IMG/VR virus record: IMGVR_UViG_3300030061_000976
Coordinates: 1-52,788 of that record
Reading direction: 5' to 3' (one strand)
Origin: a virus
DNA: 52,788 bases
The position numbers and the translations under genes are program-made. The notes below the pieces were generated by a model. That model ran no database searches. It was not told where the DNA came from and saw only the letters and a list, made by a program, of their open reading frames with translations. Of this stretch, positions 6,195-52,788 are shown in pieces (within the stretch, counting starts at the first letter, position 1; each line of letters begins with the position of its first letter).

Positions 6195-6728
6195 ATGCTA
6201 CGGTGGATTGGGCTGGCCGCTTTTGCGGTAGTTCTGTCCACCGGGGCAGCTTATGCGGCAGATACTGTAACGTCTGCTACGGTAAGCAGTTCAACAGTAG
6301 TTGACAAAACACCACCTACAGCATCCAGCCCTTCAATAGTCGTTAACAACAACGATATCTGTCAAGTTGGAACCAGTGGCGCTTTGCAGACTGGTCTTTT
6401 TGGTGTGTCCGGTGGCACCACCACTCGTGATCTAAACTGCGAGAGGATCAAGCTGGCACGGTCTGTGTTTGGTATGGGGCTGAAGGTTGCTGGCATTAGC
6501 ATTCTTTGTCAGGAAGTGCGTGTGTTCGACGGCCTTTGGATGGCCGGAACTCCTTGTCCGTTTATGGGCAAGATCGGGGACGCGGCGAGGCAAGAGTGGA
6601 TCAAGAACCCGGAGAAAGCGCCGGAAGGTTCTATTGTGCGGTTGCAGGTAAAAGCGGAAACTGTATCTTTGCAGCCTCAACAGAGTTCTGATTGGCCTGA
6701 CGAAGAAGAATGGTACGGAGGCGATTGA
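6195..6728 (+). CDS. Exported hypothetical protein of the shared module (copy 1)
   Basis: 177 residues with a Sec-type signal peptide (hydrophobic LAAFAVVLS, cleavage after AYA at about residue 22). The mature part has four cysteines (in NDICQVG, DLNCERI, ILCQEVR and TPCPFMG) that could pair in the periplasm. It ends in an acidic stretch. The mature protein is nearly identical to the one encoded at 51741-52301, but the two signal peptides are unrelated. The family is unknown to me. Its stop overlaps the start of the next gene (TGATG), so the two are probably translationally coupled. It could be a periplasmic or virion protein. Confidence 0.65.
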   Translation: MLRWIGLAAFAVVLSTGAAYAADTVTSATVSSSTVVDKTPPTASSPSIVVNNNDICQVGTSGALQTGLFGVSGGTTTRDLNCERIKLARSVFGMGLKVAGISILCQEVRVFDGLWMAGTPCPFMGKIGDAARQEWIKNPEKAPEGSIVRLQVKAETVSLQPQQSSDWPDEEEWYGGD

Positions 6729-7215
6729 TGCGTTGGCTGATCGCATTCCTGCTTATGTCGTCTTCTGCATTAGCGGAGACAGTAACGACGACTAATGTCC
6801 TTCCAGATCTGTCTGCGTTTACGACAAGTGGATCCACGACATCTGCTGGTTCCGCAAGAGGTTGCAGTGCCGGAGAGTTTTGTACGGGTAACGCTACGGC
6901 GGGCGGCGGAACTTATACGAGCACTTTTGATGTTCCGTTAACCGAGGACGAGGTTCGCAGAGGCTTTACCCTCAACAGCGCGGTTACCGTGGACAGTCAT
7001 CCGAGTAACGCTACGCTCTCTACATGCACGAGCGTTACGCAGGTGGGGGACTGTCGCGATCTTTTTACGTTAGGGATCACACTTTTAGACGGGGGAACCG
7101 TAGCGAAAGAGTTTACTCACGAGGTAGAATTAGACTTTACTGGGGAGAGGTTGTTTTCGTTCTCGGACACGATGGTGGAGAACGACTTTGGAATTTTGAC
7201 GGGAACCTTTTCTCT
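6261..7215 (+). repeat. Diverged long direct repeat, copy 1
   Basis: This stretch aligns without gaps to 51834-52788 at a constant offset of 45,573 bases. Most differences are synonymous third-position changes. The last 77 bases (7139-7215) are identical to the final 77 bases of the window. Similarity begins abruptly at the signal-peptide cleavage region of the exported protein. Confidence 0.9.
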
Positions 7216-8080
7216 ATTTGGAATCGACGCAGGATTTCATTCCGGGTTCTTTGGACCAAAGTTTTCTGATCCCAGCCTGACGTTTACGCATGAACGGGTT
7301 GTAGAGCAGCAGATTCTGGATCAGATCGTGCAGAACGACGTTATAGCGGCTGCGCCGCCGGTTCAGATTAACCTTCCCCCTCCTCCAGTTGACTTGCCGC
7401 CACCGCCAGCAGCGGCCCCCATCGTTGTTGCGGTTGCCCCACAGGCTCCGTCCGAGCCGCCACCGCCGCCGGAAATTGTGCCTATTCAAATTGATTTGCC
7501 TCCGCCTCCAATGGAACAGCGACAACAGGAGTCACAAGCTGAGGCAACCATTGAGGCTCAAATAGAACAGGATATAGCGCCTCCCCCTGTAGAACAGCCT
7601 CGCGCCCGAGAGCCGGAACCTGAGCCGGAACCGGAACCTGAACAACCGCAGCAGTCTTCTGAACGGGAGCCTGAACCAGAAGGACAGCCGGCAGAAGCGC
7701 GGCCAGAGCCTCAACCCTCTGAACCAGAACCGGAGCCGGAGCCTTCCGTGGAACCGCCGGCGGAGACTAGAGAGGCGCAAGCCCCTCCAAAGCCCAAGAG
7801 CCGACAGGAAAAGGTTAAAGCGGCGGCTGAAAAGGCGGTTGCAAAGATAGCTCCGTCCCAGAGATACTCAGCAGCGTCACAAACCACCACTATGGTGGCT
7901 ATGGGTATGATCTCGCCTAAAATTGTAGCCCCTGCGGCCTTAACGGATACACCCGGCTTCTTTACAGGTACAAAAGTTCCTGATGGGCCTTCTATGGTTG
8001 ATCGGATGCAGAACTATACGTTGTTCGGTACATCAAACGGGGCGCACAATGCCCTTGTAGAGCTAGATTGGAAACGTTGA
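6728..8080 (+). CDS. Exported Pro/Glu-rich protein of the shared module (copy 1)
   Basis: 450 residues from ATG 6728, which overlaps the upstream stop as TGATG; this start gives a clean signal peptide (LIAFLLMSSSALA). Residues 20-200 form a Thr/Gly-rich extracytoplasmic domain. They are followed by long low-complexity tracts: poly-Pro with Leu/Asn (residues 215-270), then Glu-Pro repeats (PEPEPEPEPEPEQPQ) to about 360. A short basic helix and a conserved end (MQNYTLFGTSNGAHN) follow. The Pro/Glu tract resembles the periplasm-spanning linkers of TonB-like proteins, so an envelope-spanning role is possible. A partial second copy begins at 52301. The gene probably joins phage A 5' sequence to phage B 3' sequence. 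Confidence 0.65.
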   Translation: MRWLIAFLLMSSSALAETVTTTNVLPDLSAFTTSGSTTSAGSARGCSAGEFCTGNATAGGGTYTSTFDVPLTEDEVRRGFTLNSAVTVDSHPSNATLSTCTSVTQVGDCRDLFTLGITLLDGGTVAKEFTHEVELDFTGERLFSFSDTMVENDFGILTGTFSLFGIDAGFHSGFFGPKFSDPSLTFTHERVVEQQILDQIVQNDVIAAAPPVQINLPPPPVDLPPPPAAAPIVVAVAPQAPSEPPPPPEIVPIQIDLPPPPMEQRQQESQAEATIEAQIEQDIAPPPVEQPRAREPEPEPEPEPEQPQQSSEREPEPEGQPAEARPEPQPSEPEPEPEPSVEPPAETREAQAPPKPKSRQEKVKAAAEKAVAKIAPSQRYSAASQTTTMVAMGMISPKIVAPAALTDTPGFFTGTKVPDGPSMVDRMQNYTLFGTSNGAHNALVELDWKR

Positions 8081-20348: not shown

Positions 20349-20773
20349 ATGATGAAAGAGTTATCACCGGCACCTATGCAGATTTTAAGATTATAAAAAC
20401 ACGCAAGGTTGCACAGATGGTAGTGGAGTTTCCAATAGAGCAAGCTGAAAGTTTTGTCAGCAAGCTAGGACTTCCTAAGCCGCATGAAGAAATGTGGGTC
20501 GCGGTAGCGATGTTGAAGTCTGTATCAGTTCAGACAAGTGGTAAGGCGACCAGTGCTATTCAGCAAGCCGGTATACTTTGTAAGGATGTCTCTTTCGGAA
20601 CGTGGCTTCGTGATTCCAAAAAAATGGAAATCAATCCGGCTAATGAGGTCGAAGTACAAGATGCCTTAAGGACTATCTTGGGTGTTTCCTCAAGGGCAGA
20701 GATGAGAGATAACGATCAAGCGTTAGCTGTATGGGAGAGGTTGTATGATCAGTATCGTGATTCAAGTCGGTAG
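20345..20773 (+). CDS. Hypothetical protein of the recombination operon
   Basis: 142 residues, starting 4 bases before the previous stop. It opens with a beta-strand block (GTYADFKIIKTRKVAQMVVEFP) followed by EQAESFVSKLGLPKPHEEMW, a pattern seen in several phages next to recombination genes. The last 30 residues are helical. I do not know its function. It converges with the SleB-like gene and their ends overlap by 25 bases. Confidence 0.55.
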   Translation: MNDERVITGTYADFKIIKTRKVAQMVVEFPIEQAESFVSKLGLPKPHEEMWVAVAMLKSVSVQTSGKATSAIQQAGILCKDVSFGTWLRDSKKMEINPANEVEVQDALRTILGVSSRAEMRDNDQALAVWERLYDQYRDSSR

Positions 20774-21171
20774 AAAATGTGATTGCCAATTATGGCAGTC
20801 GGGTTTTTACCCTCGGCCCAAAAAGGCAGAACTTGCAGGGTGTGATAATGCGTGGCCCCATTCGTAATATCACTAACATTAGATTTCATCAGATAGATCG
20901 TGATCTGCATCGCTCTCTCAAAAGCAGCCTTGTCTGTAGGCTTGTCCGATTTGCCATCGCAGTACCACGAAAACTGACACTGATGGCGCTTGGGAAATCC
21001 AGATGAGTATGTCCTCGCATCGTAAACGACCTCACATAGAGTGTCTGGATACCTATTATCTATGGTGCGATTTACCACGACTTGAGCAACAGCAAGCTGT
21101 CCTTCAAGGCTCTGGTTTCTAGCCTCAAAATAAACATTTAGCGCAAGGCACATCAAAGCATCAACTAACAT
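20749..21171 (-). CDS. SleB-like cell-wall hydrolase
   Basis: 140 residues matching the Hydrolase_2 (SleB/CwlJ) domain: the opening ALNVYFEARNQ carries the catalytic glutamate E16. It is followed by AVAQVVVNRT, a CQFSWYCDG block, and the late GATHYHTL motif. These enzymes cleave peptidoglycan glycan strands as lytic transglycosylases. There is no signal peptide, so export would need a holin. It is far from the other lysis genes (49870-51494) and alone on its strand, so the phage encodes two unrelated murein enzymes. An early or alternative role, such as cell-wall remodelling, is possible. Confidence 0.85.
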   Translation of the reverse strand: MLVDALMCLALNVYFEARNQSLEGQLAVAQVVVNRTIDNRYPDTLCEVVYDARTYSSGFPKRHQCQFSWYCDGKSDKPTDKAAFERAMQITIYLMKSNVSDITNGATHYHTLQVLPFWAEGKNPTAIIGNHIFYRLESRY

Positions 21172-21284: not shown

Positions 21285-22280
21285 ATGTTTTTAGGAACGC
21301 AACGTAGGTTTGGAGTTGAAATTGAGTTCGTAGGTGTTAACCGCGATGAACTCGCACGGGCTATTTCTGCACAGGGCATTGATTGCGTAGTTGAGGGTTA
21401 CAACCACCGGACGCAGAGCCATTGGAAAATTGTTACCGATGCCTCATGTGGCTATGAGATGGTTAGCCCAATCCTTCAGGGCGAAAGCGGTTTCTTCGAT
21501 CTAAAAGTTGTTATGGACACCATGGCCGGGATGGGTTGTGTGGTTAACCGCCAGACTGGGGTTCACGTTCACCTTGAAGCGATTGACCTTACCGCGCTGG
21601 ATGTAAAAAACATTGTGAAGCGTTACAAAGACAATGAGGCGGAAATTGACTCTTGGTTCCCGCGCAGCCGCCGTGCAAACAACAACACATATTGCAGAAG
21701 TGTAGCTAGCTGCATTTCCGAGATACACGGAACAGATGAATACTTGGATGCCCAGCAAGCAAGGGTGACCACTCAGTTTCTTAATACGCGATTTACTAAA
21801 CTGAACCTCGCCAGCTTGAACCGTTATAATACGATTGAGTTTCGCCAGCATGCCGGTTCTACAGATTACGTTAAGGTCTCAAACTGGATTTTGTTTCTTC
21901 AGCATTTCATGGACCAGAGCGCCAAGATGAAAAACGCGGGTGGCCCTAACATGAATGTGCGCCGCTCAAAAAACCGGGTTTACGACGAAGTGAGAACACA
22001 GATTGAAGCGGCGGGTGGCCAGATGCGCCATGCCGGCGCACAGAATTGGAAAGTAACAAGCCCTGATGGTGCTGTTCATATTTTCACTATTGAGCAGTTG
22101 GATGCGCTTTATGTTGGCAATCCATATCGAGGGCGGCGTGTTCTGGATGTGAATACAATGAGGGATTTTTGGAGCGTAGTAATCGGTACGGCAGAAGTAA
22201 TTGACGATTCTCTAAATGCAGAGATACCGAATAGCGTAGTAGAGTTTTTTGAAACCCGCCGCGAAGCACTCGCGGCGTAG
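21285..22280 (+). CDS. Amidoligase_2-family enzyme
   Basis: 331 residues. The opening RRFGVEIEF (E12 and E14) and the later TGVHVHLEA and TIEFRQHAGS motifs are the metal- and ATP-binding signature of the Amidoligase_2 family, which has a glutamine-synthetase-like fold and forms amide or peptide bonds with ATP. Comparative work on amidoligases describes phage and bacterial operons that pair them with gamma-glutamylcyclotransferases, as here. Possible substrates are a host protein, a cell-wall peptide or a gamma-glutamyl metabolite. It is first in a two-gene cassette with its own promoter and terminator. Confidence 0.85.
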   Translation: MFLGTQRRFGVEIEFVGVNRDELARAISAQGIDCVVEGYNHRTQSHWKIVTDASCGYEMVSPILQGESGFFDLKVVMDTMAGMGCVVNRQTGVHVHLEAIDLTALDVKNIVKRYKDNEAEIDSWFPRSRRANNNTYCRSVASCISEIHGTDEYLDAQQARVTTQFLNTRFTKLNLASLNRYNTIEFRQHAGSTDYVKVSNWILFLQHFMDQSAKMKNAGGPNMNVRRSKNRVYDEVRTQIEAAGGQMRHAGAQNWKVTSPDGAVHIFTIEQLDALYVGNPYRGRRVLDVNTMRDFWSVVIGTAEVIDDSLNAEIPNSVVEFFETRREALAA

Positions 22281-22298: not shown

Positions 22299-22727
22299 AT
22301 GTTATATTTAGCATACGGATCAAACCTTAATCTTGATCAGATGGCTGTAAGATGCCCAGACGCGGAGCCGCTTCACGGGATACAGTTAAACCACTTCAAG
22401 CTGATATTTCGCAATGTGGCGGATATCACAGAAGAAGAAGGGGCGTTAATAAATCTTGGAGTATTTAGCATAACGGATGCGTGCGAAGAGGCGCTTGATA
22501 GATATGAGGGATTCCCAACCCTCTATACCAAAATGTATCTGACTATGGATGGTGAGGAGTACATGACTTACACGATGCATAGAGATGCTATAGCGCCGCC
22601 TTCGTCTGGATATTACGACTGCATAAAACAGGGCTATCAGCATTGGGGGTTTGAAACAGACTTACTTGAAGCCGCGCAAAGAAACAGTTTCGCCATGCGT
22701 TGGGGGCTTGGAGAAATGAGAGCGTAA
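22299..22727 (+). CDS. Gamma-glutamylcyclotransferase (GGCT/AIG2-like)
   Basis: 142 residues preceded by CACACAGGAGAAAAGCAG. The nucleotide-free substrate loop YGSNL at residues 6-10 and the LDRYEG motif (E70) identify a GGCT fold, which releases gamma-glutamyl groups as 5-oxoproline. With the amidoligase it would form an 'attach and remove' pair for gamma-glutamyl linkages. A terminator follows within 60 bases, closing the cassette. Confidence 0.88.
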   Translation: MLYLAYGSNLNLDQMAVRCPDAEPLHGIQLNHFKLIFRNVADITEEEGALINLGVFSITDACEEALDRYEGFPTLYTKMYLTMDGEEYMTYTMHRDAIAPPSSGYYDCIKQGYQHWGFETDLLEAAQRNSFAMRWGLGEMRA

Positions 22728-22808: not shown

Positions 22809-22946
22809 ATGGCTACAAAAGCAAAGGGGTTAAACAAGATTGAGTCAATCAAGAAGAAGACATCAATAGGCCAAAGCGTTCGATCTAGACCTTCAAACAA
22901 ATCTAAAAGACGCAGCTTCAAAAGATATAGAGGCCAAGGAAAATGA
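22809..22946 (+). CDS. Small basic protein
   Basis: 45 residues from ATG 22809. It is strongly basic (for example KSKRRSFKRYRGQGK at the end), and its stop overlaps the ParB-like start as ATGA. The ribosome-binding site is weak (GAGGCTCAAG), so the coupling is the main support. Small basic phage peptides of this kind may bind nucleic acid; no family is recognised. Confidence 0.45.
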   Translation: MATKAKGLNKIESIKKKTSIGQSVRSRPSNKSKRRSFKRYRGQGK

Positions 22947-23518
22947 GCGATCCAGCCAGCAAAGTTGATAGCCGTCCGATTGAGTCGTTGGTTCCGTATG
23001 ACCGCAACCCAAGGATGCACCCTGACTCTCAGATTGAGCAGTTAGCGAATAGCATCAGGCAGTGGGGCTGGACTGTTCCAATCTTAATTGATGACGCTAG
23101 CAACGTGATAGCGGGTCATGGAAGGCTTGAGGCGGCAAAGAGGCTAGGGATGGAAGCAGTCCCTTGTGTCGTTGCTTCTGGGTGGACTGAGGACCAGCGC
23201 AGGGCATATGTCATTGCGGATAACAAGCTAAGTGAGAACTCCGCTTGGGATGACGGGTTGTTCTATAGGGAATTGACGGCGCTAAGTGAGGCAAATTTTG
23301 ATTTGAGTCTTACTGGCGTTGAGGGTTTTGAGGTTGTTGATTTCCAACCAAACGTAGACCCCTCATTTAGTCCATATAATGTTGATGATGTAAGTCTGGA
23401 CCGTGCATCAGATAATATGACTTCTCAGATTAACGGCATACAAAATGGCAAGGCTGAACAAGGAACAGAGGTGATGTGTCCGCATTGCGCTGAAACTTTC
23501 ATATTTACGGGATCATGA
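22943..23518 (+). CDS. ParB/Srx-like N-terminal-domain protein with C-terminal CxxC
   Basis: 191 residues. Residues 10-110 are a ParB-like domain: IESLVPYDRNPRMHPDSQIE, VIAGHGRLEAAKRLGM with the AGHGR box at 57-61, and AYVIADNKLSENSAWDD. This is the exact N-terminal half found fused to DNA methyltransferases in many phages and prophages. Here the methyltransferase half is missing and a short CPHC motif ends the protein. A separate methyltransferase-like gene follows one gene later, so the fusion appears split. It may be a CTP- or ATP-binding DNA-associated protein or nuclease; there is no ParA partner, so segregation is unlikely. Confidence 0.8.
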   Translation: MSDPASKVDSRPIESLVPYDRNPRMHPDSQIEQLANSIRQWGWTVPILIDDASNVIAGHGRLEAAKRLGMEAVPCVVASGWTEDQRRAYVIADNKLSENSAWDDGLFYRELTALSEANFDLSLTGVEGFEVVDFQPNVDPSFSPYNVDDVSLDRASDNMTSQINGIQNGKAEQGTEVMCPHCAETFIFTGS

Positions 23519-23790
23519 CTCCAGATCAATTTCAAGAGTGCGTGTCTGGCAAGAAGTGGCGCTTTGCCAAAAGCATGCCCTCAATACCGCATGAATACAC
23601 ACGGGTATCTGAATGGGCATCAAAATCAGATTTTGAAAATGCCGTGATGTGTATCAGAGAACACGGAATCACTGAGGCATTTTATAAGCGTAAATATATC
23701 TATCTATATGTGGGCGGCTACAAATACTGGACTATGGGCGCTTCAGCTCATGAAACGGAGATCATAAACAGGGCCGCAGTGAATGGATGA
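23515..23790 (+). CDS. Hypothetical protein between ParB-like and methyltransferase-like genes
   Basis: 91 residues, overlapping both neighbours (4 and 8 bases). It is rich in aromatic residues (YKRKYIYLYVGGYKYWTMG). It has no known motif. The tight overlaps suggest it works in the same complex or pathway as its neighbours. Confidence 0.55.
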   Translation: MTPDQFQECVSGKKWRFAKSMPSIPHEYTRVSEWASKSDFENAVMCIREHGITEAFYKRKYIYLYVGGYKYWTMGASAHETEIINRAAVNG

Positions 23791-24364
23791 AATGTATCAC
23801 ACTGCTTTGAAAAGTAAGTTTGATACAAAGGATGTTGCTGTATCAACTAGAGTGAGCGGTGATAGATATCTTTTTCTTCAAAGTGATCTGATGGTTAACG
23901 GCATCCCTGACGAGGTGACTGATTGTGATGTTATCTATGGTGAGCCACCGTGGCCTCATGGGTTTAAGGTTTTCAATGACAGAGCAGAAGTCAGTGACAG
24001 GCGTACATACCAAGAATTTGCTAGTGTTCTAGGTTCTGAGATAAAGCGCATCAGAAAGCCGTTCTATATGACGCTAGGCAAGACCTTAATGAAAATGCTT
24101 CCATCTCACTCTGGGAGTCTTCCTGTGAAGCTAAACGGTGCAGATGCTTTCATGGTCTGGTGGTTTGATAAGTATGATGGCCCACATGATACCAATATAT
24201 CCATCTGTAAGGCGCTAGGGGCGCGGTACAGAAGCATGGGTGATTGGTGCTGCGGTTATGCCACCCCATTGCTGGCCTTTAGTGAGGGGGGCGGAAAACG
24301 CATTGTAGGGTCTGATTATGATGGGAAGTGCATAACTGTTTGCGGTGAAAGGATGAGACGTTGA
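23783..24364 (+). CDS. Permuted DNA methyltransferase-like protein (EPPW motif)
   Basis: 193 residues. Near the N-terminus CDVIYGEPPWPHG carries EPPW (54-57) in place of the catalytic DPPW/DPPY motif IV of amino-methyltransferases. Near the C-terminus a segment with pattern G-D-W-C-C-G-Y-A-T-P, about 18 residues later G-S-D-Y-D, aligns with motif I and the ribose-binding acidic loop. Motif IV before motif I is the order of permuted beta-class enzymes. Both motifs are degenerate, and the protein is shorter than usual. It may be a methyltransferase with unusual specificity, or a catalytically inactive decoy; the operon with two ParB-like proteins points to DNA. Confidence 0.55.
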   Translation: MDEMYHTALKSKFDTKDVAVSTRVSGDRYLFLQSDLMVNGIPDEVTDCDVIYGEPPWPHGFKVFNDRAEVSDRRTYQEFASVLGSEIKRIRKPFYMTLGKTLMKMLPSHSGSLPVKLNGADAFMVWWFDKYDGPHDTNISICKALGARYRSMGDWCCGYATPLLAFSEGGGKRIVGSDYDGKCITVCGERMRR

Positions 24365-25533
24365 AAATATACTTAAAAAACAACGTATGGGACGCCGCGC
24401 TAAGTAGAATGAACAGGGTGTTTGATGAATTTGACAATGTAGTTATCTCAACGTCCGGAGGCAAAGACAGCACTGTGACTATGCAGTTGGCTTTGATGGT
24501 CGCGGAACAGCGCGGGAAGCTTCCCTTGAAAATGCTGTTCTTGGATCAGGAAGCAGAATACGGCATGACCATTGAGTATATGCGTTTGGCTATGGCGGAC
24601 CCTCGCGTTGAGCCATTGTGGATACAGGCACCCATAAAGCTGTTCAACGCAACCTCTATGGATGAGCCGTGGCTAATGTGTTGGGACGAGGATGAAGAGT
24701 GGATGCGTCCTAAAGAAGACATAAGCATTAAAGAGAACGTGTTCGGCACTGATAGGTTTCATGATATTTTCCCTAAAATGCTGGCGCATTGGTTTCCAGA
24801 TCAGAAGGCTTGTTATCTGGCCGGGGTAAGGGCAGAGGAAAGCCCGCAGCGTTTAGCGGGCCTGACCACAGGTCAAACCTATAAAGAGATCACATGGGGA
24901 AAGGTGCTGGATAAAAAGAAAGACCACTATACGTTTTATCCGCTCTACGATTGGTGTCTCAGTGATGTTTGGAAATCTATACATGATGGTGAATGGCCGT
25001 ATTGTCGTATCTATGATGAGTTATACCGTTACGGACAAGCGCCTCACAAAATGAGGGTGTCAAACCTTCACCATGAAACAGCAGTACACAGTCTCTTCTT
25101 TTTGCATGAGGTCGAGCCTGATACATGGGGCGCTCTTACTAAGAGACTTAAAGGCGTCAATCAGGCAAAGCATATGCAGAAGCATGAGATGTTAGCGGTT
25201 AAGAAGCTGCCGCCTATGTTCAAAGATTGGAAGGAATACAGGGATTATCTTACAGATAATTTGATAACTTTAGAGGATCACAAAGCAAGGTTTAAAAAGC
25301 AGTGGTCGCGTATGGACGATCTATATGACGAATTACGCAAGCCGGATGAAATGTACCAGAAGCAAATAGGGTCACTTCTCGTCAATGATTGGGAGTTTGT
25401 AAAAATTGCAGGGTATTTGAATAGTCCATCAATCATAGCTTACAGGGATTGGAAAAAAGGTAATTTGCATGCTCGCAAACGACCCCCTCAAAATTTAGTG
25501 CAGATAAAAGAGAGATACTTAAATGTCGGATAG
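24361..25533 (+). CDS. ibrA: IbrA-like PAPS-reductase-family protein (DUF3440 type)
   Basis: 390 residues with a TTG start overlapping the previous stop. The PP-loop SGGKDST (residues 32-38) binds ATP as in PAPS reductases and N-type ATP pyrophosphatases. The block CYLAGVRAEESPQRLAG and a Trp-rich FYPLYDWCLSDVWKSI segment match the IbrA/DUF3440 branch rather than true PAPS reductase. The following gene is its usual IbrB partner. In the Dnd phosphorothioation system a related PP-loop enzyme activates sulfur for DNA; a DNA-modification or nucleotide-altering role is plausible here but unproven. Confidence 0.8.
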   Translation: MKIYLKNNVWDAALSRMNRVFDEFDNVVISTSGGKDSTVTMQLALMVAEQRGKLPLKMLFLDQEAEYGMTIEYMRLAMADPRVEPLWIQAPIKLFNATSMDEPWLMCWDEDEEWMRPKEDISIKENVFGTDRFHDIFPKMLAHWFPDQKACYLAGVRAEESPQRLAGLTTGQTYKEITWGKVLDKKKDHYTFYPLYDWCLSDVWKSIHDGEWPYCRIYDELYRYGQAPHKMRVSNLHHETAVHSLFFLHEVEPDTWGALTKRLKGVNQAKHMQKHEMLAVKKLPPMFKDWKEYRDYLTDNLITLEDHKARFKKQWSRMDDLYDELRKPDEMYQKQIGSLLVNDWEFVKIAGYLNSPSIIAYRDWKKGNLHARKRPPQNLVQIKERYLNVG

Positions 25534-26089
25534 TCCAGACTTCTCACATCATCCCATCAATGATGTAAAGTGGGTTCCAATTGAGAAGGTTGAGGCCAAT
25601 GATTACAATCCTAATTCCGTGGCGGGTAAGGAGATGGGGTTATTGCATACCTCAATTAAGCATGATGGTTACACCCAGCCAATTGTTACGGTCTATGATC
25701 CGGATAGAGATGTGTACGTTATCGTGGATGGTTTCCATAGATACTTTACCTGTAAAAATAACAAGGACATAAAAGACAGCACCCACGGTCATTTGCCCGT
25801 AGTGGTTCTGGACAAAAGCATAAATGACAGGATGGCATCTACTGTTAGACATAACAGGGCGCGAGGCGCTCATAGCGTTACGGGCATGTCTAATATGGTG
25901 TTCACTATGCTAGAGAATGGATGGGCAGATGCAGATATATGCAACAAGTTGGGCATGGATGCTGATGAACTATTGAGGCTTAAACACATCACGGGATTCA
26001 GCAAGCTATTCAAGGATGCAGAATACAACAAATCGTGGGTATCAAAACATCAGATATTGTTGGCTAAAGAAAATGGTGTTAAAGCATAG
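25523..26089 (+). CDS. ibrB: IbrB-like ParB-domain protein
   Basis: 188 residues, overlapping the IbrA-like gene by 11 bases. The ParB-like core has VEANDYNPN, IVDGFHRYFTC with the DGFHR nucleotide-binding box at 69-73, and the motif ASTVRHNRARGAHSV, the IbrB hallmark. In Escherichia coli IbrA and IbrB are a paired locus affecting gene expression, with no defined chemistry. Its C-terminal HTH-like part (ADICNKLGMDADELLRLKH) could bind DNA. It ends 12 bases before the small terminase. Confidence 0.8.
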   Translation: MSDSPDFSHHPINDVKWVPIEKVEANDYNPNSVAGKEMGLLHTSIKHDGYTQPIVTVYDPDRDVYVIVDGFHRYFTCKNNKDIKDSTHGHLPVVVLDKSINDRMASTVRHNRARGAHSVTGMSNMVFTMLENGWADADICNKLGMDADELLRLKHITGFSKLFKDAEYNKSWVSKHQILLAKENGVKA

Positions 26090-26101: not shown

Positions 26102-26689
26102 ATGGAACAGAGTGATAACGAAGAAACTAAATCCCTTAAGCTGACTGAGGCTATAAAAGAGGATATACGCCGTGAGTTCATACACGGCCATACTGATGAA
26201 AGCGGTGCTTTTGACTACCCAAGCATTGACTCGTTAGTTCAAAAGTACGGCGTTTCTCGTACCACTCTATATCGTTACGCCAGTAAAGAGGATTGGCAGG
26301 GGCAGAGAAACCACGTCCAAACCGAGATTGATGAGAGAATCAGGGCTACGCGGTTGAAGGATTACGTTGAGCATAGCAACCGCCTAGATGATAACGCTCT
26401 AAGGCTGGCGCAGAGCTTGATGGCCAAAGTGGCGCGAAAGATCACACAAGATGAAGAACAGCTTAGAAATGATCCTGATTATGAGGGCATGGCAGCAGGG
26501 GTGCTAGACAGGCTGGCATCTGTTGTGGGTCAGGCGCAGAAAATAGGCAAACTAGCCCTTGGTGAGGCTCAAGAGATATCAAAGGTGTCAACTAATGTTG
26601 CGATCCCCGAGTCGTTCCGAGAAATTGCTGACGAATTGGACGCGATTGCCGCAGCCAAGTCACAGAGCGGCAACCACACTTTACAGTGA
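26102..26689 (+). CDS. terS: Terminase small subunit
   Basis: 195 residues. An N-terminal helix-turn-helix (SIDSLVQKYGVSRTTLYRYA, about residues 40-60) would recognise the packaging start site. A central helical region and an Ala-rich oligomerisation segment follow. It lies directly upstream of, and overlaps, the large terminase, the normal position for the small subunit. Confidence 0.75.
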   Translation: MEQSDNEETKSLKLTEAIKEDIRREFIHGHTDESGAFDYPSIDSLVQKYGVSRTTLYRYASKEDWQGQRNHVQTEIDERIRATRLKDYVEHSNRLDDNALRLAQSLMAKVARKITQDEEQLRNDPDYEGMAAGVLDRLASVVGQAQKIGKLALGEAQEISKVSTNVAIPESFREIADELDAIAAAKSQSGNHTLQ

Positions 26690-27890
26690 TTGGATAAGAA
26701 ATATCTCACGCCCCGAACAGGTTACGCCACCGGGGGATTGGGATGTGTGGCTTATACTTGCCGGCAGAGGGTGGGGTAAGACTCTTACTGGAGCAATGGA
26801 TGCGTTGATATACGCGCTTAAAAATCCAGAATCACAGGTGGCCGTTGTTACTCCTACCTTTGGGGATATACGAAGGGTAGCCTTCGGTGGCGTTTCCGGC
26901 ATGCTCAAGCACCTTCCTCGTGAGTGCCTTAAGTCAGGGCGTGGTCAAGGATACAACGCTTCAGCAAGCGAAATAAGGCTATACAACGGCAGCAAGATCA
27001 TGGGCTTTAGTGCAACCGAGCCGGATAGGCTACGAGGGCCGCAGTTTCATAGAGCGTGGTGTGATGAGTTGGCCGCTTGGCAGTATCCAGATACATTTGA
27101 TCAATTGCAGTTTGGGCTGCGTCTTGGGGATAAGCCTCAGTGCGTTATTACTACCACTCCTAAACCAATCCCAATGATAAGAGATTTAGCAAAACGAGCT
27201 AACATATGTATCACAAGAGGTAGCACTTTTGAGAACGCCGCTAATCTAGCTCCATCAGCGTTGGCCATGCTAGAAGAAAAATACTCCAATACAAGGCTAG
27301 GACGCCAAGAACTGTACGCTGAAATCATAGATGACATTGAAGGCGCGTTGTGGTCTCATTCTATAATAGAGGACCAGAGGGTTACAGAAGCACCGGAAAT
27401 GCAGCGCATTGTGGTTAGTATTGACCCCGCCGTCACATCTGGAGAAAACAGCGACGAAACCGGAATAATTATATCTGGAAGAGGCGTTGATAATCGATAT
27501 TATGTAATTGATGATATCTCTGGTAGGATGTCACCAGATGCGTGGGCGCAGAAAGCAGTAAATGCGTACCATGAGCATGACGCTGATAAAATTGTAGCTG
27601 AAGTTAATAACGGCGGCGATCTTGTAGAGCGTCTGATTAGAACGGTTGAATCGGGAGTGCCGTATAAAGCTATAAGATCATCCCGTGGAAAGTTACTTAG
27701 GGCAGAGCCTATATCTGCTCTATATGAGCAAGGCAAGGTCAGTCACTTGGGCGTATTTAGTGAGTTAGAGCAGCAGATGTGCGGCTACACACCGGAAACA
27801 GCCAAATCACCAGATAGGCTAGATGCCTTGGTTTTCGGTATCACTGAATTAAGCGCCTCAAGCGGGCAAGCGATGTGGAGGGTATCATAA
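26559..27890 (+). CDS. terL: Terminase large subunit (phage B)
   Basis: Up to 443 residues; the true start is uncertain. The frame is open from 26559, but homology to Terminase_6/GTA-type enzymes begins near LYSDWIRNI (about 26680), and a TTG at 26646 is a candidate start. The ATPase has Walker A AGRGWGKT and Walker B AWCDE followed by the ITTTPKP coupling motif. The nuclease starts with VSIDPAVT and has EVNNGGD and a final D-A-L-V-F segment. It pumps DNA into the capsid through the HK97-type portal encoded next. Unlike the fragment at 1-213 it is complete. Confidence 0.9.
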   Translation: MVRLKRYQRCQLMLRSPSRSEKLLTNWTRLPQPSHRAATTLYSDWIRNISRPEQVTPPGDWDVWLILAGRGWGKTLTGAMDALIYALKNPESQVAVVTPTFGDIRRVAFGGVSGMLKHLPRECLKSGRGQGYNASASEIRLYNGSKIMGFSATEPDRLRGPQFHRAWCDELAAWQYPDTFDQLQFGLRLGDKPQCVITTTPKPIPMIRDLAKRANICITRGSTFENAANLAPSALAMLEEKYSNTRLGRQELYAEIIDDIEGALWSHSIIEDQRVTEAPEMQRIVVSIDPAVTSGENSDETGIIISGRGVDNRYYVIDDISGRMSPDAWAQKAVNAYHEHDADKIVAEVNNGGDLVERLIRTVESGVPYKAIRSSRGKLLRAEPISALYEQGKVSHLGVFSELEQQMCGYTPETAKSPDRLDALVFGITELSASSGQAMWRVS

Positions 27891-51494: not shown

Positions 51495-51760
51495 ACTTGA
51501 AAGGAAAAGTTTACAAACTAACAAACTTACAGAGTCGTAGGTTTCTGGCTCTTAGTTTTGTTGGGTTTCATCAGCATCACCATCAAGGGGTTGCCCTGTG
51601 CGCTGACGTTGAGGAAGAATTGTTGAAAACCAAGATGATCCAAAATGCTGGTGATTACGTTGAAATCACTGAGCGGGGTCTTAAAGAGATAGCTCGTCTT
51701 GCTACGCTGGCTGGAATAGTCATGCCGTGGGAAGATAGCAATGAAAAATCAGTTCAATAA
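51491..51760 (+). CDS. Small hypothetical protein with winged-helix-like end
   Basis: 89 residues overlapping the spanin gene by 4 bases. The N-terminal half is rich in His and aromatic residues (FVGFHQHHHQGVALCA). The C-terminal half (EELLKTKMIQNAGDYVEITE, then RGLKEIARL) resembles the end of a winged helix. Function unknown. It ends 20 bases inside the next gene. Confidence 0.5.
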   Translation: MNLKGKVYKLTNLQSRRFLALSFVGFHQHHHQGVALCADVEEELLKTKMIQNAGDYVEITERGLKEIARLATLAGIVMPWEDSNEKSVQ

Positions 51761-52301
51761 TTTAGCTGTATGCCTGCTTCTAGCGTTCTGCTTGTTTCTG
51801 GCGTTTTCTTTTGTTTCTCCATCATATTCTGCTGATACAGTAACATCAGCAACGGTGTCTAGTTCAACCGTAGTTGACAAAACACCACCTACAGCATCTA
51901 GCCCTTCAATAGTCGTTAACAACAACGATATCTGTCAAGTCGGAACCAGTGGCGCTTTGCAAACTGGTCTTTTTGGTGTGTCCGGTGGCACAACCACGCG
52001 AGACTTAAACTGCGAGAGGATCAAGCTGGCACGGTCTGTGTTTGGTATGGGGCTAAAGGTTGCTGGCATTAGCATTCTTTGTCAGGAAGTGCGTGTGTTC
52101 GACGGCCTTTGGATGGCTGGAACGCCCTGCCCGTTTATGGGCAAGATTGGGGACGCGGCGAGACAGGAGTGGGTCAATAATCCTGAGAAATCGCCGGAAG
52201 GTTCTATTGTGCGGTTGCAGCTAAAAGCGGAAACGGTATCTTCGCAGCCTCAACAGAGTTCTGATTGGCCTAACGAAGAAGAATGGTACGGAGGCGACTG
52301 A
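51741..52301 (+). CDS. Exported hypothetical protein of the shared module (copy 2)
   Basis: 186 residues. The signal peptide (LAVCLLLAFCLFLAFSFVS, cleavage near SYSA) is unrelated to that of copy 1. From the cleavage site onward the protein differs from copy 1 at only a handful of positions. The four cysteines of the mature protein are all conserved. The selective conservation of the mature part suggests the exported protein has a constrained partner. The stop overlaps the next start as TGATG, as in copy 1. Confidence 0.65.
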   Translation: MKNQFNNLAVCLLLAFCLFLAFSFVSPSYSADTVTSATVSSSTVVDKTPPTASSPSIVVNNNDICQVGTSGALQTGLFGVSGGTTTRDLNCERIKLARSVFGMGLKVAGISILCQEVRVFDGLWMAGTPCPFMGKIGDAARQEWVNNPEKSPEGSIVRLQLKAETVSSQPQQSSDWPNEEEWYGGD

Positions 52302-52788
52302 TGCGTTGGCTGATCGCATTCCTGCTTATGTCGTCTTCTGCGTTGGCGGAAACTGTAACGACGACCGATGTTCTTCCCAATCTGTCCGCGTTTACGACAA
52401 GTGGGTCAACGACATCTGCTGGTTCTGCGAGAGGCTGTAGCTCCGGCGAGTTTTGCACGGGCAACGCTACGGCGGGTGGCGGAACTTATACAAGCACTTT
52501 TGATGTTCCATTGACCGAGGATGAGGTTCGCAGAGGCTTTACCCTCAACAGCGCGGTTACCGTGGACAGTCATCCGAGTAACGCTACGCTTGCTACATGC
52601 ACGAGCGTTACGCAAGTGGGGGACTGCCGCGATCTTTTTACGTTAGGCATCACGCTTTTGGACGGGGGAACCGTAGCGAAGGCGTTTACTCACGAGGTAG
52701 AATTAGATTTCACTGGGGAGAGGTTGTTTTCGTTCTCGGACACGATGGTGGAGAACGACTTTGGAATTTTGACGGGAACCTTTTCTCT
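51834..52788 (+). repeat. Diverged long direct repeat, copy 2, ending in a 77-base perfect match
   Basis: Gap-free copy of 6261-7215 with scattered, mostly synonymous substitutions, until 52712. From 52712 to the window end the two are identical for 77 bases. The window therefore ends exactly on sequence it already contains. Confidence 0.9.
52301..52788 (+). CDS. Exported Pro/Glu-rich protein of the shared module (copy 2, cut by window end)
   Basis: The first 162 codons of a protein homologous to the one at 6728-8080, with the same signal peptide (LIAFLLMSSSALA). The window stops inside the frame. If the circular model is right, the reading frame continues at base 7216 without interruption, giving a 450-residue protein. 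Confidence 0.65.
   Translation, partial: MRWLIAFLLMSSSALAETVTTTDVLPNLSAFTTSGSTTSAGSARGCSSGEFCTGNATAGGGTYTSTFDVPLTEDEVRRGFTLNSAVTVDSHPSNATLATCTSVTQVGDCRDLFTLGITLLDGGTVAKAFTHEVELDFTGERLFSFSDTMVENDFGILTGTFS

Follow-up and report, generated by a model that had tools for sequence, protein, structure and literature searches.

The described systems that come closest to the locus studied here each share some of its parts. Dnd and Ssp (DndB/DndC, SspD) have a PP-loop protein of the PAPS-reductase superfamily, a ParB-fold partner (in Dnd) and DNA as the presumed target. In the Dpd 7-deazaguanine system, the ParB-like ATPase DpdB serves DNA-base modification (PMC12839542), a precedent for such proteins, and the PP-loop protein QueC supplies the base. 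Fusions of a ParB domain to a methyltransferase are common in phages (PMC12704722), and E. coli carries adjacent genes for IbrA (PAPS_reduct plus DUF3440) and IbrB (ParB with a DGFHR motif), annotated as transcription co-activators. DNA-hypermodification kits of the TET/ADDT/TAGT kind combine a primary base-activating enzyme with exchangeable transferases. Here we analyse a 52,788-base virus record (IMG/VR IMGVR_UViG_3300030061_000976, called the window throughout, at its full length), in which six genes, A to F, occupy positions 22809–26089 of the plus strand, E and F encoding IbrA and IbrB. In our view, this locus is probably one version of a modular cassette that phages exchange horizontally and with which they hypermodify the bases of their own DNA before packaging.

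The locus also departs from each of these systems. Its IbrA lacks the cysteine motifs of Dnd and Ssp chemistry and is surrounded by carbon-group transferases, and neither a Dnd or Ssp partner nor a Dpd enzyme family was matched among the window proteins tested. The E. coli pair belongs to the same two families but has no slot enzymes, that is, none of the exchangeable enzymes encoded here between C and E. The ParB–methyltransferase fusions (phrog_498) are one polypeptide, whereas the parts resembling their two halves, B and the slot methyltransferase MT2, are separate genes; the window has no MT2, and D matches neither half. TET kits occupy the same site in close relatives, between the ParB protein B and the terminase small subunit (TerS), but are built on an oxygenase and a kinase rather than on a PP-loop ATPase and IbrB.

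Replacement by DNA-hypermodification kits

The strongest clue to function is that Tet_JBP/ADDT/TAGT kits stand in for the cassette at one and the same position. With the terminase large subunit (TerL) of the window as seed, and no cassette protein, a search gave 32 non-redundant loci of this TerL clade, each with at least 5 kb upstream; this set is unbiased and provides our cleanest test, though with n = 32 only. IbrA and IbrB were both present in 20 of these loci. The other 12 had no C, amidoligase or gamma-glutamyl cyclotransferase-like protein (GGCT) in the upstream stretch; B was retained in 11 of them, and in eight a Tet_JBP-type protein lay between B and TerS. No locus had both (Fisher p = 4.7e-5). 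Tet_JBP-type proteins were likewise found in none of 156 IbrA loci, and IbrA in none of 10 Tet_JBP-type carriers. The amidoligase was present in 14 of the 20 loci with IbrAB versus 0 of the 12 without (p = 1e-4), and two further TerL-seeded loci, outside the 32, carry it without IbrA.

The Tet_JBP-type protein is accompanied by varying sets of ADDT (amino acid:DNA transferase), TAGT (TET-associated glycosyltransferase), GATase, P-loop kinase-like, FAD oxidoreductase and methyltransferase genes. Representatives of the kit proteins matched the Pfam families Tet_JBP (5e-20), ADDT (2e-24 and others), TAGT (1.7e-19, and 1e-36 in L287), GATase and FAD oxidoreductase. Around the exchanged part, a locus with a TET kit (L292) and a locus with IbrAB, a glycosyltransferase (GT) and an oxygenase-like protein (L281) are 76–83% alike in their upstream blocks and 77–92% alike downstream, and one TET kit (L295) itself includes a protein of the MT2 family. 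Because the two kinds of kit share one site, retain the same ParB protein and have this methyltransferase family in common, their purpose is most likely the same, namely to modify the bases of phage DNA chemically. The original prediction that the locus modifies or protects DNA before packaging is thus well supported by same-position replacement within one terminase clade. Compact TET kits lie between ParB and TerS in L292 (3698–7433) and in L272, L275, L278, L291, L295 and L305; some include a class II amidotransferase.

A conserved frame around an exchanged slot

The six overlapping genes are real and every neighbouring pair overlaps, E starting at a TTG codon that overlaps the stop of D. 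As a functional boundary, however, the six genes first proposed were drawn both too wide and too narrow. Gene A, which no relative but the closest (L003) was found to carry, does not belong to every cassette and probably lies outside the conserved unit; that unit extends to an amidoligase and the GGCT, which often accompany the cassette and had been overlooked along with the variable slot. The order B–C–slot–E–F–TerS–TerL is repeated, with variations, in more than 100 non-redundant contigs, so the families, whose lack of co-occurrence elsewhere would have refuted the original prediction, occur together beyond chance. Close relatives retain the order B–C–slot–D–E–F–TerS–TerL–portal. Spacing between cassette genes has a median of −4 bases and is at most 30 bases in 98% of cases.

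With E, D and C as seeds, searches yielded 135 non-redundant viral loci, on contigs that are fragments and with genes called by a simple script. The slot of the window holds D only, and relatives have one or more other genes between C and E. The slot families are a phrog_854-like GT, a methyltransferase with a DPPW motif that matches DNA-methyltransferase profiles (MT2), D, an oxygenase-like protein with a conserved HxD...H pattern (OX2) and a small GNAT; rarer contents are an NAD-dependent epimerase, UDP-glucose dehydrogenase, glycosyltransferase family 8 and methyltransferases of TylF, FkbM and NNMT type. OX2 was considered as a 2-oxoglutarate oxygenase, but its Cupin_2 and Asp_Arg_Hydrox matches were below threshold and it was kept as oxygenase-like. 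Of the 55 loci seeded with E, 54 contain F and 51 a slot enzyme; E was present in 43 of the 49 loci seeded with C and in 30 of the 31 seeded with D. These fractions are conditional on the seeds, since the searches selected loci for their similarity to cassette proteins. Counted inside versus outside 4 kb of IbrA, a zone that makes up 61% of the bases, the slot families gave 39:1 for D, 44:1 for GT, 36:1 for MT2 and 24:0 for both OX2 and GNAT.

Exchange affects the slot as a whole, with sharp breakpoints at its edges. Locus L076, with GT and OX2, and locus L018, with MT2 and D, have flanks that are 89% and 98% identical, and no match between C and IbrA; the same pattern is seen in the pairs L087/L108, L063/L090, L197/L033 and L069/L070. 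On an approximate (FastTree) tree of 130 IbrA proteins, the slot state (D, OX2, GNAT or none) changed at least 37 times. D, OX2 and GNAT never occurred together in 102 loci, and this exclusion persists when IbrA is clustered at 70% identity and each cluster is represented by a single locus (0 co-occurrences, against a mean of 6.2 after shuffling); being mutually exclusive, they look like alternative second-step enzymes. GT and MT2 were found together in 2 of the 102 loci, and OX2 was accompanied by GT in 21 of 21 cases. Purely vertical inheritance within a single phage lineage is ruled out by the slot changes on the IbrA tree and by the presence of several terminase clusters, and is further countered by the spread of cassette parts over one haloarchaeal plasmid and contigs assigned by binning to many bacterial phyla.

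Of the phages unrelated to that of the window, the Microbacterium phages Hendrix, Rasputia and Dewdrop have glycosyltransferases, an acyltransferase and a methyltransferase ahead of IbrA. At its genome end, Microbacterium phage Hendrix encodes a relative of GT, a glucosyltransferase, a methyltransferase with an N-terminal C domain, an N-acyltransferase and IbrA, and at its genome start IbrB, two more ParB proteins and TerL; in Rasputia and Dewdrop, IbrA is preceded by three genes annotated as glycosyltransferases and by genes for an acetyltransferase and a methyltransferase. Mycobacterium phage Athena encodes ParB, IbrA, IbrB and TerL; a methyltransferase joins these in Arthrobacter phage Salgado and Bacillus phage 031MP004. 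The plasmid, from Actinarchaeum halophilum (L233, CP071309.1), carries IbrA, an MT2-type methyltransferase and IbrB. Directly ahead of IbrA, L229, L233 and L128 encode proteins of about 250–280 amino acids with a common MTPSNR motif; the one from L128, the sole one tested, had no Pfam match.

Several points weigh against DNA-base modification as the function of the cassette. No measured modified base was found in the accessible literature for any cassette-bearing phage, the TerL-seeded set is small, the linkage fractions depend on their seeds, and D departs from the canonical methyltransferase motif IV. In Streptococcus, Lactobacillus and Escherichia phages (L027, L241, L242), IbrAB stands without slot genes, near lysis or antirepressor genes. 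Finally, virion proteins would be an equally fitting target for the glycosyltransferases, acyltransferases and sugar enzymes. This is the main rival explanation: the slot enzymes would glycosylate, acylate or methylate proteins of the capsid or the tail, with IbrAB and ParB as unrelated neighbours or makers of a precursor. It accords with the epimerase, UDP-glucose dehydrogenase and TylF- and FkbM-type methyltransferases found in the slot beside glycosyltransferases, with the structural genes adjoining the cassette, and with the virion glycosylation proposed for glycosyltransferase-encoding actinobacteriophages (PMC11256854). Yet MT2 and D, which share the slot, have nucleic-acid amino-methyltransferase folds or motifs, the entire cassette is replaced by kits for DNA bases, and protein glycosylation offers no obvious role for an ATP-using IbrAB core. 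We regard virion decoration as unlikely.

Gene products and a proposed mechanism

Support for DNA modification also comes from the slot methyltransferases, since MT2 matches DNA-methyltransferase profiles and D folds like DNA amino-methyltransferases; that the slot further holds glycosyltransferases and acyltransferases bears out the same part of the original prediction. D carries both hallmarks in permuted order, EPPW first and GDWCCGYA...SDYD after it. Its AlphaFold model (pLDDT 86) shows a permuted Rossmann fold, with motif IV ahead of motif I, and is closest to beta-class DNA amino-methyltransferases; the top Foldseek matches in the PDB were M.BceJIV (1.3e-4), M1.HpyAVI and the PvuII methyltransferase, with template-modelling (TM) scores of about 0.5–0.57. 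In an alignment of 41 family members, the S-adenosylmethionine-motif region GDFCCGYG...SDY is conserved and the catalytic motif is relaxed to [ED]xx[WYF] (EPP[FWY], DLPW, EPSW, EIAW and others). The description of D as a permuted, EPPW-bearing methyltransferase-like protein stands as to hallmarks, order and model; the canonical motif IV, [DNS]PP[FYW], is absent from D. In its permuted fold and its E at the catalytic D/N/S position, D resembles both the METTL14-type EPPL pseudo-partner and beta-class amino-methyltransferases; it differs from them in being very short, in having no target-recognition domain and in its family motif. D may act on an unusual substrate. No relatives of D were found in INPHARED phages, nor in genome contigs searched with single-sequence patterns; one was later found in a contig (L228) binned as Leptolinea (Chloroflexi).

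By sequence, B belongs to a separate family of standalone phage ParB proteins (phrog_620) and is common to IbrAB and TET/ADDT cassettes. A C-terminal CxxC is present in 117 of 123 members. B is also similar to the ParB half of the phrog_498 fusions (7.8e-46), and B and D had been taken as the two parts of a split ParB-methyltransferase. This is not supported, as D has no profile match to the methyltransferase half of the fusion and the slot protein that does match, MT2, is absent here. B with D (or MT2) could nevertheless form an ordinary site-specific DNA methyltransferase, IbrAB being a separate chance neighbour, an idea that draws on the similarity of B to the fusions, on how common these are in phages and on the permuted fold of D. 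However, B is equally retained with GT-OX2, GNAT or TET contents, C, E and F remain when the methyltransferase is swapped, and D is allelic to OX2 and GNAT rather than to MT2, besides its non-canonical motif and its lack of a family match. We find an ordinary methyltransferase quite unlikely.

The family of C was found in 266 viral stretches. A profile built without Microbacterium phages matched Hendrix (8e-6) and Rasputia (2e-5), phages of a genus in which C is fused to a methyltransferase-like protein; a later profile match to Hendrix was discounted as circular, Hendrix being in the alignment. The predicted model of C has a pLDDT of 90, yet no fold match in the PDB, and neither C nor D matched any profile in Pfam, PHROGs, NCBIfam or PADLOC.

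In E, the profile matches (PAPS_reduct 1.1e-11, DUF3440 8.9e-9, phrog_2302 4e-82) and the adjacent ParB-fold protein identify an IbrA/IbrB pair. The PP-loop motif SGGKDS is intact in 124 of 130 full-length IbrA proteins; the catalytic cysteine motif that PAPS reductases have near the C-terminus, ECGxH, and the CxxC of DndC-type proteins, whose cysteines serve a 4Fe-4S cluster and a dyad, are present in none of the 130, and no cysteine column exceeds 83% occupancy. Among solved proteins, those closest to IbrA in sequence are the two adenylyltransferases FAD synthase and CysD, followed by LarE. Because the cysteine motifs are absent and the nearest solved proteins are adenylyltransferases, IbrA more likely adenylates its target than reduces 3'-phosphoadenosine 5'-phosphosulfate or moves sulfur as DndC does. 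These results also undercut the analogy with Dnd phosphorothioation drawn in the original prediction. An IbrA that places sulfur on DNA, as a phosphorothioate or thio-base, with ParB proteins acting as in DndB, would account for the weak DndC profile matches (5e-6 in PADLOC, 3e-5 in NCBIfam) and for the ParB fold shared with DndB; given the missing cysteines and the adenylyltransferase relatives, and since among five window proteins compared with PADLOC only the PP-loop protein gave Dnd/Ssp-type matches, we consider it very improbable.

IbrB carries the DGFHR motif in 125 of 125 proteins, and its likeness to free serine kinase is a mere hint (E 0.8). INPHARED matches numbered 215 records for IbrA and 218 for IbrB with identical leading genus counts, so the two are nearly inseparable. 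Least probable of all is that IbrAB regulates prophage or host genes with its neighbours as morons: the co-activator annotation of E. coli IbrA and IbrB for prophage gene expression and some nearby antirepressor genes speak for it, but an intact PP-loop tightly linked to exchangeable tailoring enzymes would be unusual in a regulator, the TET kits that take its place argue for modification, and altered transcription could follow from DNA modification.

For the DNA-modification cassette, we envision that bases are modified after replication and before packaging. B, and perhaps IbrB, would engage DNA and recruit or gate the enzymes. IbrA would use ATP via its PP-loop to adenylate, and thereby activate, either the base position or the group to be attached, with IbrB as its NTP-binding (nucleoside triphosphate-binding) partner. 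The slot enzymes would complete the group with a sugar (GT), methyl (MT2), acyl (GNAT) or hydroxyl (OX2); in the window phage, the group would be finished by whatever the diverged amino-methyltransferase-fold D transfers, with the amidoligase and GGCT possibly assembling or trimming an amino-acid portion. A swap of the slot would give a different final chemical coat, as expected under selection for variety by restriction systems, and protection would be the presumed benefit.

More tentatively, and with somewhat less than even confidence, we propose that IbrAB stands for a class of DNA-base hypermodification with new chemistry, in which the PP-loop enzyme adenylates a base of the phage DNA, a group is attached through an amine or carbon link, and a rapidly swapped slot of glycosyl-, acyl-, methyl- and oxygenase-type enzymes makes the coat of each phage its own. 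To this class would then belong hundreds of phage genes annotated as PAPS-reductase auxiliary metabolic genes or as ParB partition proteins. If the cassette modifies DNA, such sulfur-metabolism and partition annotations in hundreds of phage genomes are wrong, hypermodified DNA can be reached by a new route, and the exchangeable slot offers a ready-made series of variants in which to study how DNA coats diversify against restriction. Cultured Microbacterium phages of the Hendrix group make the question directly testable. No description of the cassette was found in the searchable literature, which leaves out most subscription papers, and a prior one may exist; one paper found treats the gene as a single sulfur-metabolism gene.

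Features of the locus and its surroundings

Table 1. Genes of the cassette and adjoining genes in the window
Feature	Length (amino acids)	Position	Strand	Evidence	Remark
Amidoligase_2 protein	331	21285–22280	+	Pfam PF12224 2.2e-32	optional cassette companion
GGCT	142	22299–22727	+	Pfam PF06094 6.5e-5; synteny	usually adjoins amidoligase
A, basic	45	22809–22946	+	phrog_516 9.3e-5	
B, ParB-fold	191	22943–23518	+	phrog_620 1.6e-51; PF02195	
C, cassette-specific domain	91	23515–23790	+	no family match	
D, slot gene, EPPW	193	23783–24364	+	fold from model; no family match	
E, IbrA, PP-loop ATP-pyrophosphatase with DUF3440	390	24361–25533	+	PF01507, PF11922, phrog_2302	
F, IbrB, ParB/sulfiredoxin-fold with DGFHR motif	188	25523–26089	+	phrog_2159 4.2e-70	
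TerS		26102–26689	+	weak terminase small subunit matches	orthologues precede TerL in relatives
TerL		26670–27890	+	alignment and TerL-seeded search	landmark for replacement test

Upstream of the amidoligase, an open reading frame at 20749–21171 runs on the minus strand, opposite to the surrounding genes, and encodes a putative cell-wall hydrolase. The window also contains a 300-base direct repeat, 92% identical between 6247–6546 and 51820–52119, which is part of a near-duplicate gene pair (6195–8077 and 51741–52786) near both ends of the record.

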